A DNA stretch of 64,000 nucleotides from Ruegeria sp. Ofav3-42 (GTDB lineage: Bacteria; Pseudomonadota; Alphaproteobacteria; Rhodobacterales; Rhodobacteraceae), in assembly GCF_022347725.1 (NCBI RefSeq), contig NZ_JAKRGB010000003.1, positions 62,001 to 126,000 of the forward strand. Reading direction: 5' to 3'. The notes under the pieces are model-generated. The model saw only the letters and a list, made by a program, of their open reading frames with translations. It was not told where the DNA came from and ran no database searches. Of this stretch, positions 1 through 3,575 are shown one piece after another. Position 1 is the stretch's first letter, and each line of letters begins with the position of its first letter. The translations under genes were made by a program, and so were the position numbers.

Positions 1-29
1 AAATCAAATTGCATGGTCGCCGTGAACAT
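1..29 (-). CDS. 5' end of probable isovaleryl-CoA dehydrogenase (partial)
   Basis: Only the first nine codons lie in the window, reading MFTATMQFD on the minus strand before the edge. An AGGAG ribosome site (complement of about 37-41) sits 7 bases upstream of the ATG, which makes this a credible start. The peptide resembles the amino end of Rhodobacteraceae isovaleryl-CoA dehydrogenase, a flavoprotein of leucine breakdown. That identity is from memory of the family and rests on very few residues; the existence of a start here is better supported than the name. Confidence 0.42.
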
Positions 30-109
30 AAGCGATCTCCTCTTTCGCATTAATGAACAGTTGTTCAATAAATAGCAGCGAATCTGAAAGGGGTCAACGA
101 CAGCATCCC

Positions 110-145
110 AAAAACAAACCGCCGCCCGGATCGGGGCGGCGGTTT
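110..145 (-). terminator. Rho-independent terminator of the HAD/aminotransferase gene
   Basis: A perfect 9-bp GC stem (CCGCCGCCC, 119-127, with GGGCGGCGG, 134-142) encloses a 6-base loop and can be lengthened by three A-T pairs. On the minus strand it is followed by a T-rich run at about 118-110. It lies about 40 bases beyond the stop codon at 185, which is the expected place. Confidence 0.8.
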
Positions 146-184
146 CCAAGAAATAAGCGTGCGCGTCACGCGCACTCGATTGGG

Positions 185-2086
185 CTACGACTGATAGACG
201 GCGCTGACCTCTGCCCGGATGATCCGGGCAATCAGGTCGCAGTCCTCCAGCGAAAAGGTCAGCGGGACGCGCATATCCACGATCCCGGCAAGGATACGGT
301 CACTTTTGGGCATTGGCGAACTGTCGGCATATCGCCAGCTGTCATAGCGCGACGTGAACCCCGACGGTTCGGCACCGCCAAACCACTTGAGCTCGACCCC
401 GCGCGCAGCACAGCGCTTGATCACTTCGTTTACCCGCTCCGGCGACCAATCCAGCAACAAGAACTGGATTGAAGACCCCACGAATGTCTCGGCCTCGGGG
501 CGTTCGACTATGGTTAGGCCAGGCGTTCCGCGCAGGCCTTTTTCGATCTCGAAATAGCGTTCATTCCAGCGCTCAACCTGCCGGTTCAGATCCCGCAATT
601 GCGGGCGCAGGATTGCCGCGCGCAAGTTGTCCATCCGGCCCGAAACATTGGGCGTGTTGTATTTGATCCGCTCAAACACGTCAGGCCCCGGCGCAGCAAG
701 GTGCCGCTCATACAGCATGTACGACCCCGACAACATCGTTGCCTTTGCCGCCAGCTCCTCGTCATCGGTAATCAGCAGCCCGCCCTCACCCGAATTGACG
801 TGTTTGTAGGTCTGACACGAATAACAGCCGATCGCTCCCTGTCGGCCCGACAGCTGCCCGCGCCACGCGGCACCCATCGTGTGGGCGCAATCCTCGATCA
901 CGATCACACCAGCGGCGTCACACATTTTCATCAGCCGGTCCATGTCACAAAGATGCCCGCGCATATGGCTGAGCATCAGAACGCGCGCCTGATCCAGCTT
1001 GGCCTCAAGATCATCCAGATCGATCGTCAAGTCTTCGGTCACGCCCACAAAAACCGGGCGCGCGTTGACCGAGGCGATTGACCCCGGCACAGGTGCCAAA
1101 GTGAATGCATTGGTCAGAACCTGATCGCCCGGCTTTATACCTACAGCCCGCAATGCAGTGGCCAGCGCATACCCGCCCGACGACACGGCCAGACAGTATT
1201 TCGCCCCCATTTGGGCGGCAAATTCCTGTTCCAAAAGCGCCGTTTCACCCAGTTCTCCGGGAACAACGTTGTAGCGGTGCAAACGCCCGTGCCGCAAAAC
1301 GGCCAGGGCGGCCTCAACCGCCTCTTCGGGGATGGGTTCCTGTTGGGTAAAACTGCCGGTGAATGTCTCTGTCATGGGATTGTTCTGGTCCTGCAAGACG
1401 TTTGGGTCAAGGGATTGCGCGGCCACGCCAATCAACTCTGCCACCAATCCCGGCAGATCATCGAAATGGTGGAGCAATGCTTCGGGTTCCAGCTCAGCCA
1501 TATCGGCGCCCGACGGGCCAAACGTGACCAGTACCGAAGGCACGCCTGCAGCACGGGCCGTGTTCCGATCCGTGTCAGAATCGCCGATCAGCACACATAG
1601 ATCAGGGTGCCCACCTGCCCGGCGGGCGGCCTCGCGCAAAGGTTCCGGGTCAGGCTTGCGTACTGGCAAAGTGTCTGCCCCCACCAGCGAAGCAAACTGA
1701 TCCCGCACGCCCATCTGAGTGAGCAACTGATGCGCCAAAGCCTCGGGTTTATTTGTACAGATGCCAACACCGTAGCCCGCAGCTCTCAACCCCTCAACCG
1801 CATCAAGCGCACCGGGATAGAACTGCGTATGCGTATCGATATCTTCAGAATAAGCGTTCAGCAGCATCGGATAGTAGGCCTGAACGGTCGCATCATCGTA
1901 CGCACCAACCCTTTTCAGGCCATGCGTCAGCATCATTCGCCCCCCACGCAAGGCAATCGCCGCGTCCTCTCCATGAACCAGTACGTCGCCGTGACCCATA
2001 TGGCGGAAACAGTGGTTGGCTGCGGCCAGAAGATCGCCCGATGTATCGGCCAAAGTCCCGTCCAGATCAAAGATTACCGTACGCAT
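185..2086 (-). CDS. In-frame HAD-type phosphatase / DegT-family aminotransferase
   Basis: One open frame of 633 aa joins two recognisable enzymes. Residues 1-220 are a phosphoglycolate-phosphatase-like HAD hydrolase: DLD at 7-9, Thr111, Lys144 and GDSDTD at 168-173 give all four HAD motifs. Residues 238-633 are a DegT/DnrJ/EryC1/StrS PLP-dependent sugar aminotransferase with EDCAH near 398-402 and the likely Schiff-base lysine at 428 (TYKHVNSGEGG). The linker of about 17 residues has no stop. The start at 2086 is fixed by a strong AGGAGG four bases upstream. In relatives I recall these as neighbouring separate genes. The internal ATG at 1375, where a separate aminotransferase would begin, has only an AGGA 13 bases away, so a fusion is more likely than re-initiation. 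Divergent from glmU, so a role in amino-sugar or surface-polysaccharide supply is plausible but inferred. Confidence 0.85.
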   Translation of the reverse strand: MRTVIFDLDGTLADTSGDLLAAANHCFRHMGHGDVLVHGEDAAIALRGGRMMLTHGLKRVGAYDDATVQAYYPMLLNAYSEDIDTHTQFYPGALDAVEGLRAAGYGVGICTNKPEALAHQLLTQMGVRDQFASLVGADTLPVRKPDPEPLREAARRAGGHPDLCVLIGDSDTDRNTARAAGVPSVLVTFGPSGADMAELEPEALLHHFDDLPGLVAELIGVAAQSLDPNVLQDQNNPMTETFTGSFTQQEPIPEEAVEAALAVLRHGRLHRYNVVPGELGETALLEQEFAAQMGAKYCLAVSSGGYALATALRAVGIKPGDQVLTNAFTLAPVPGSIASVNARPVFVGVTEDLTIDLDDLEAKLDQARVLMLSHMRGHLCDMDRLMKMCDAAGVIVIEDCAHTMGAAWRGQLSGRQGAIGCYSCQTYKHVNSGEGGLLITDDEELAAKATMLSGSYMLYERHLAAPGPDVFERIKYNTPNVSGRMDNLRAAILRPQLRDLNRQVERWNERYFEIEKGLRGTPGLTIVERPEAETFVGSSIQFLLLDWSPERVNEVIKRCAARGVELKWFGGAEPSGFTSRYDSWRYADSSPMPKSDRILAGIVDMRVPLTFSLEDCDLIARIIRAEVSAVYQS

Positions 2087-2219
2087 ATTGCCTCCTAATT
2101 CGGCGGGTCTTCGCCGTAAGTGTTGCAAACGGCAATCTTGTTTGATGCCCGTACCGCTTGCGCCTTTGAACTCAGCGGATAAAACGGGCGGCGAAAAAAC
2201 ACAAAGAGAAATCGATTTC

Positions 2220-3575
2220 ATGAGTATTGCCCTTGTCATCCTTGCCGCCGGAAAAGGCACCAGGATGAATTCGGATACCCCAAAAGTTCTACACCCGATT
2301 GCCCAAACCCCGATGTTGGTCCACGCAATGCGCGCAGGTGCCGTTCTGTCGCCCGAGCGGACTGTTATTGTCACCGGTCACGGTTCAGAGGCCGTCGCCG
2401 AGGTCGCCAATGCCGAGGATGAAACAGCTCAGATCGTTGTGCAGGAAGAACAATTGGGAACGGCGCATGCCGTTGCTCAGGCGCGCGATGCGCTTGAAGG
2501 TTTCGAAGGCGATGTCATTGTCCTTTATGGCGACACTCCGTTTATCGACCCAAGAACGTTGGAACGCATGATCGAGGCGCGCGCCTCATTCGACCTGGTC
2601 ATGCTTGGTTTTGATATTGCCGAAGTTCAACCGCGTTATGGCCGATTGATCATGGATGGCGACCGGTTGACGAAAGTAGTCGAATATAAAGAAGCAACCG
2701 AGGAGCAGCGTGCAATCCGCTTTACTAATAGCGGGCTTCTGACCTGCAACGCAAAACTGCTGTTCGAACTGATTGACCAGATCGGCAATGACAATGCCAC
2801 GGGTGAGTATTACCTGACGGAAGTCGTATCTCTGGCCAATGCACGCGGGCTTTCAGCCACTGCTATCAAATGCGACGAGGCAGAAACTTTGGGTGTGGAC
2901 TCTCGCGCTGATCTTGCTGCGGCAGACGCGGAATTCCAGGCACGTGCTCGCGGCGAACTCCTGGCGCTGGGCGTAACGTTGATGGCACCGGAAACTGTGT
3001 ACTTGGCCGCCGACACGATTATTGGACGAGACACTGTTATCGAACCCAATGTCGTTTTCGGACCGGGCGTCACTGTTGAAAGCGGCGCAACAATCCGGTC
3101 GTTTTCACACCTTGAAGGCTGCCACATAAGCAGAGGTTCAATCGTTGGGCCGCATGCCCGATTGCGCCCAGGTACGGAATTGGCAGAAAACACGCGTATC
3201 GGCAATTTCGTCGAACTGAAGAACACTGAAATCGCCGAAGGTGCGAAAGTTAACCATTTGAGTTACATCGGCGACTCTATTGTTGGAGCAAAATCCAATA
3301 TCGGCGCAGGCACGATCACCTGCAACTATGACGGCTTTAACAAACACCGTACAACGATTGGTGAAAACGTCTTTGTTGGCTCGAACACAATGCTGGTGGC
3401 ACCGGTGAATGTGGGTGACGGTGCGATGACAGCCGCTGGCACGGTTGTTACACGCGATGTCGAACCCGACGCTCTGGCCATGGCACGGGCCAAGCAGGAA
3501 AATAAGCCCGGTTATGCAAAGAAATTATTTGATATGTTGAAGGCGAAGAAAGCACGCCGAAACAAAGGAGCCTAA
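2220..3575 (+). CDS. glmU: Bifunctional GlmU: N-acetylglucosamine-1-P uridyltransferase / glucosamine-1-P acetyltransferase
   Basis: This enzyme makes UDP-GlcNAc in the cytoplasm: it acetylates glucosamine-1-phosphate and couples it to UTP, feeding peptidoglycan and LPS. The 451-aa product has the nucleotidyltransferase signature LAAGKGTRM near residues 7-15, YGDTPFID near 100, and a C-terminal left-handed beta-helix rich in hexapeptide repeats such as IGRDTV and IGNFVE. Length fits the family (about 450-456 aa). I chose the ATG at 2220 because MSIALVILAAGKGTRM is the normal amino end; the open frame extends upstream without a recognisable domain. glmS follows after 3 bases, so the two hexosamine steps are probably co-transcribed. 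Confidence 0.97.
   Translation: MSIALVILAAGKGTRMNSDTPKVLHPIAQTPMLVHAMRAGAVLSPERTVIVTGHGSEAVAEVANAEDETAQIVVQEEQLGTAHAVAQARDALEGFEGDVIVLYGDTPFIDPRTLERMIEARASFDLVMLGFDIAEVQPRYGRLIMDGDRLTKVVEYKEATEEQRAIRFTNSGLLTCNAKLLFELIDQIGNDNATGEYYLTEVVSLANARGLSATAIKCDEAETLGVDSRADLAAADAEFQARARGELLALGVTLMAPETVYLAADTIIGRDTVIEPNVVFGPGVTVESGATIRSFSHLEGCHISRGSIVGPHARLRPGTELAENTRIGNFVELKNTEIAEGAKVNHLSYIGDSIVGAKSNIGAGTITCNYDGFNKHRTTIGENVFVGSNTMLVAPVNVGDGAMTAAGTVVTRDVEPDALAMARAKQENKPGYAKKLFDMLKAKKARRNKGA

Follow-up and report, generated by a model that had tools for sequence, protein, structure and literature searches.

Gene fusions that arise when the stop codon between two adjacent genes is lost are a known kind of event, and pairs of an aminotransferase and a phosphatase that work on one substrate are known as well. 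A leaderless mRNA was established for acuR of R. sphaeroides, according to the part of the report that concerns this gene (PMC3017554). In S. meliloti, 171 leaderless start sites were described and the −10 element of sigma-70 promoters was reported to be poorly conserved, as given in the sections of the report on start sites and promoters (PMC3616915).

The stretch of DNA analyzed here (the window, 64,000 nucleotides) comes from Ruegeria sp. Ofav3-42 (contig NZ_JAKRGB010000003.1, positions 62,001 to 126,000). In it, the gene of a HAD-type phosphatase (HAD) continues without a stop into that of a DegT/DnrJ/EryC1/StrS aminotransferase (AT). The locus is like the known stop-loss gene fusions in its single substitution, its in-frame spacer and its two intact domains, but it differs from them in that the AT retains its own start and a promoter-like element, and the separate protein need not be replaced. 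It is also like acuR and the leaderless genes of S. meliloti, as described in the cited parts of PMC3017554 and PMC3616915, in that the ATG of the AT lacks a convincing Shine-Dalgarno sequence and the RNA would be expected to start there. Unlike in those genes, the 5′ end of the AT mRNA is deduced from conservation, and the element lies inside an open frame in the window. The features of the locus, with the evidence for each, are as follows.

185–2086, minus strand: continuous frame of HAD, joint and AT; 633 codons, ending in TAG at 185–187, about 69 kDa.
2091–2096, minus strand: Shine-Dalgarno AGGAGG of the HAD start (sequence and duplex energy of −10.2).
1418–2086, minus strand: HAD-type phosphatase, phosphoglycolate-phosphatase-like, ancestral codons 1–223 (Pfam, TIGR01449, motif residues).
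1415–1417, minus strand: lost stop, codon 224, now CAA (a stop stands here in relatives).
1376–1417, minus strand: new joint, codons 224–237, formed by the former stop codon plus what was the 39-bp spacer (relatives compared).
1405–1410, minus strand: −35-like element TTGACC, beginning 35 nt before the AT start codon (conserved upstream of AT).
1382–1387, minus strand: −10-like element CAGAAC (family CAnAAC), −12 to −7 from the AT start codon (conservation profile).
185–1375, minus strand: DegT/DnrJ/EryC1/StrS aminotransferase with its own ATG at 1373–1375, about 44 kDa (Pfam, invariant K191, structure model).
116–145, minus strand: intrinsic-terminator-like hairpin past the AT gene, 12 pairs with a T-rich tail (terminator scan).

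The frame contained zero internal stops over its 633 codons and both Pfam domains were found in it, in agreement with the preliminary description, in which a HAD phosphatase ran into a DegT aminotransferase without a stop. Mechanically, the open frame can be extended upstream to a GTG at 2374, but it is the ATG at 2086 that carries the AGGAGG. The linker that had been described between the domains does exist, but it is 14 residues long and not about 17, the HAD of relatives ending at codon 223 and their AT starting at codon 238. An Rfam search of positions 1–3000 returned zero matches at gathering scores, and a known structured RNA at the junction was thereby rejected. Terminator-like sites numbered 6 in positions 1–2400 against 2.8 expected, and the hairpin at 116–145 had the most pairs. 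Past this hairpin (L150, G000:C33:50001-62100) lie acyl-CoA dehydrogenase-like, carboxylase-like and hydroxymethylglutaryl-CoA lyase genes; they resemble a leucine/isovalerate degradation cluster, and only the lyase scored above its NCBIfam cut-off.

Both domains were complete, as had been claimed. HAD_2 matched fusion residues 4–187 (3.4e-29), and D7/D9, T111, K144 and D169/D173, which we take to be the residues of the DxD, T/S, K and acidic motif IV, were invariant in 23 of 23 aligned HAD proteins, so that all four HAD motifs are present. The alignments of HAD and AT each comprised the window and 22 of the 80 named loci described below. The HAD resembles phosphoglycolate phosphatase (TIGR01449; 2yy6) in its nearly full-length match and its four motifs, but its score against TIGR01449 (159.3 bits) falls under the curated cut-off of 180. 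A second HAD with 34% identity occurs elsewhere in the genome. DegT_DnrJ_EryC1 (PF01041) matched fusion residues 281–622 (6.2e-59; 200.5 bits against a gathering score of 19.8), and K191 of the AT (fusion residue 428), the candidate PLP-binding lysine, was invariant in 23 of 23 ATs. This lysine lies near those mutated in solved relatives (K184A to K188A in the structure titles), the place being compared by number only. A structure model of the AT alone had a pLDDT of 90.4, and its nearest folds were sugar aminotransferases. In Pfam family and fold, and probably in its invariant lysine, the AT is like KdnA (5k8b) and AHBA synthase (1b9h), sugar aminotransferases of the DegT/DnrJ/EryC1/StrS type, whereas its identity to the 50 solved chains listed was only 18–26%. 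Among the matches listed, no equivalog model was hit with a score that reached its cut-off. The same genome (G000:C22:463692-464858) and many relatives also encode a second aminotransferase of the DegT family, with 38% identity. In the AT model the first 16 residues had no regular structure; such an N-terminus would make an added N-terminal domain tolerable, though it is no proof that it does so.

Codons that were unique to the window among it and five relatives changed the amino acid 4 times in the HAD and 8 times in the AT. The dN/dS was 0.01–0.03 in those pairs with the window that gave a value (two pairs gave none), rough figures given that the counting was simple and that synonymous distances in the HAD were near saturation. 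Both domains look constrained, which says that they matter and does not say that the fusion matters. A frameshift or pseudogene was rejected, as the frame is open and dN/dS is low.

Where the fusion came from was investigated in 60 relatives and the own genome, including 36 other genomes of Ruegeria. The HAD–AT pair was found in all 36, each time with a stop between the genes. In 29 of them a single match covered the pair and contained one stop or more; in the other 7 there were two matches, six times with a TGA within the HAD match and once (G025) with a HAD that ends in TAG. A stop also separated HAD and AT in all 80 named loci, many of which come from the same genomes as the genus set. We thus agree with the earlier view that relatives have the two genes side by side but not joined. 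The fusion occurred in 1 of 37 genus genomes and in none of the 80 named loci. Across all 146 loci compared, 145 were closed by a stop and the window was the only one fused. The open boundary is more than chance, since all the other loci examined have a stop at it. At codon 224, the window has CAA where the most similar junction, that of Ruegeria atlantica CECT 4292 (L008, L046), has TAA in front of a nearly identical spacer. As judged from the comparison with relatives, one T-to-C change in this codon removed the HAD stop, as the preliminary description had supposed of this strain; its proposal to compare the stop region across Ruegeria genomes singled out the window alone as fused.

Codon 224 was TAA, TAG or TGA in 45 of 47 distinct junctions of the Ruegeria set, in which one locus titled only as Rhodobacteraceae bacterium (L061) is counted. 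The 39-bp spacer was in frame in 40 of the 47, and 33 had no further stop (the window is in both counts). Since their spacer is in frame and free of further stops, most Ruegeria junctions are one base away from fusion. R. atlantica HKCCD9150 (L010, L047) has the same stop changed to CAA, but there the frame stops 12 codons further on, at a TAG. This loss is apparently independent of that in the window, and the stop thus seems to have been lost twice in the set.

The start region of the AT is conserved beyond the genus. We found TTGAC 34–36 nt before the AT start in 94 of 117 distinct upstream sequences, 72 of them at −35. In these 72, C at −12 and A at −11, −9 and −8 were also strongly conserved, and a pyrimidine stood at −1 in 68. 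In 40 further genera, TTGAC occurred at −36 to −34 in 36. This sample was picked from AT-only matches, a bias that favours genera whose HAD is absent or far away; in 25 of its genera a HAD lay upstream (gap to the AT of −4 to 610 bp, none fused), and in the other 15 none was detected in the approximately 1.3 kb preceding the AT. With TTGAC at −35, CAnAA started at −12 in 70 of 96 cases. Of 30 cases with TTGAC at −36, 10 had the CAnAA start at −13, 4 had it at −12 and 16 had no exact CAnAA. The 17-bp spacing of the two halves was therefore mostly kept when the pair moved by one base. In the window the element is intact (TTGACC, 17 bp, CAGAAC, 6 bp, ATG) and falls within codons 226–235 of the fused frame.

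No TTGAC was found at −36 to −34 in 23 of the 117 and 4 of the 40 upstream regions. In some of them, including L100, L106, L193 and L201, the AT starts a few bases from the HAD stop. Four Shimia loci (L078–L081) and a Rhodobacteraceae MAG (L086) have purine-rich stretches before the AT in place of TTGAC, which suggests a switch to a leadered AT start in these loci.

Pairing with the 16S rRNA end differed accordingly. Its median was −5.7 in regions without TTGAC (n = 27) and −1.85 in those with it (n = 130; Mann-Whitney p 4e-9, the species compared not being independent). Of the latter, 19 of 130 (0.146) still paired at −5 or better. The inner ATG of the window has no strong ribosome site, as had been stated (−4.0, against −10.2 at the HAD start); an AGGA at −17 to −14 lies far upstream and is confined to the nearest relatives. 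The use of this absence as a sign of a fused product did not hold up, for the separate ATs of relatives mostly lack such a site too. The AT gene has long been without a ribosome site and stands separate in relatives, and so this lack is no argument for a product that is only fused.

We read TTGAC/CAnAA as a leaderless promoter of the AT. The constant distance to the start codon fits a leaderless promoter or a translation element rather than an ordinary regulator site, and the −35/−10 geometry favours the promoter over the translation element. In the window, TTGACC at −35 and CAGAAC at −12 have the geometry for an RNA start at the ATG. No paper recognised as describing the start site of the AT gene came up in a literature search. 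If the element were instead bound by a protein or acted in translation, the free AT of relatives would come from reinitiation after the HAD stop, and the window would make the fusion only. Consistent with this, the −10 half is off consensus (a sigma-70 consensus scan of positions 1–2400 gave no site, and CAGAAC is far from TATAAT), and the element is rare genome-wide. The full pattern with an ATG occurs once in the 5.14-Mb genome, at window positions 1373–1410. Of 609 early ATGs in 456 kb, 6 had TTGAC at −36 to −34, a weak excess over the approximately 3 expected from neighbouring positions. In 149 genomes of the family, the pattern with an ATG matched 181 times, AT genes included, against 42 for the reversed pattern. 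But TTGAC also precedes 14 of the 15 ATs without a HAD within about 1.3 kb, and reinitiation after a HAD cannot apply where none was detected. Moreover, the carriers of the element have it 34–36 nt from the ATG throughout, whereas the HAD stop is separated from the AT by anything from 3 (L010) or 30 to 610 bp, and the spacing of the halves is promoter-like. We therefore regard a role in protein binding or translation as unlikely.

The preliminary description had raised a bifunctional enzyme joining dephosphorylation and transamination. Under that explanation the fused protein was selected, is the main or only product and benefits one sugar pathway. The open frame, the two intact and constrained domains and the adjacency of HAD and AT in many genera (25 of 40 even in the AT-only sample) are in its favour. 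Nevertheless, the fusion is confined to one genome of 37 and to none of the named loci, the promoter-like element of the AT is intact, and the AT stands without a detected HAD nearby in 15 of the 40 genera of that biased sample. These counts tell against the proposal, and we judge such an enzyme very unlikely. A product that is only fused was rejected on these grounds, the intact element in the joint among them. An error of sequencing or assembly, with the stop really present and the genes separate, would need just one base, and the fusion is known from one strain and a draft of 56 contigs. However, the same stop was lost in a separately sequenced strain (L010/L047), and the remaining frame has neither a frameshift nor a stop. 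Consensus errors are rare in such assemblies; for this reason, and given the loss in HKCCD9150, a true loss is the commoner event, and an error is in our opinion highly improbable.

As a whole, the best explanation, which we hold with good confidence, is a stop-loss fusion in which the AT is kept free by a leaderless promoter and which is near neutral. A T-to-C change, as the comparison with relatives shows, turned the HAD stop codon into CAA. The 39-bp spacer had been in frame beforehand and contained no other stops, so that the HAD frame now runs on into that of the AT. Ribosomes that start from the HAD Shine-Dalgarno would make a HAD–AT protein of about 69 kDa, and HAD would no longer be made on its own. 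The old element of the AT, TTGACC-17 bp-CAGAAC, is retained, now inside coding sequence, and an mRNA transcribed from it would begin at the AT ATG or 1–2 bases from it. Such a leaderless mRNA would need no ribosome site and could yield a free AT of about 44 kDa. Since the element is intact in the joint, free AT is probably still made beside the 69-kDa read-through protein. We suggest more tentatively a two-product gene, in which the promoter bases also encode the joint and the 69-kDa HAD–AT and the free AT would form mixed AT oligomers with a minority of tethered phosphatase. Among the genomes seen, the fusion is limited to the lineage of the window and is probably near neutral. We consider it more likely to be an accident than a new enzyme with two activities.

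Similar elements were seen before other genes. Eight pattern matches were chosen for looking alike; all have TTGAC at −34 or −35, and four stand in front of alanine racemase and four in front of a GntR-type regulator. The alanine racemase set (L214, L215, L216, L218) had TTGAC-N-CAnAA in the leaderless register; L214 scored above the TIGR00492 cut-off and the others were named by likeness. In the own genome, the alanine racemase (L219, G000:C11) has TTGACC at −35, not the exact pattern, when the ATG at which the alignment starts is the reference; another in-frame ATG lies 12 nt upstream. The GntR-type set (L211, L212, L213, L217), of which one protein was named by NCBIfam below its cut-off and the others by likeness, had TTGAC at −34 or −35, and their −10 region is covered by a TGTGATCACA palindrome. 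This palindrome is possibly an autoregulatory operator at a leaderless start. The own GntR-type regulator (L220, G000:C25) has TTGACC at −34, again not the exact pattern.

The locus presents a gene fusion caught as it begins, with a single base between it and the unfused arrangement. This fusion may be harmless, for a leaderless start of its own seems to be available to the downstream AT. In this bacterial family, the lack of a ribosome site says little in favour of a fused product. Of wider bearing is a putative, conserved promoter of the leaderless type at the AT gene, and likely also at the genes of alanine racemase and a GntR-type regulator.
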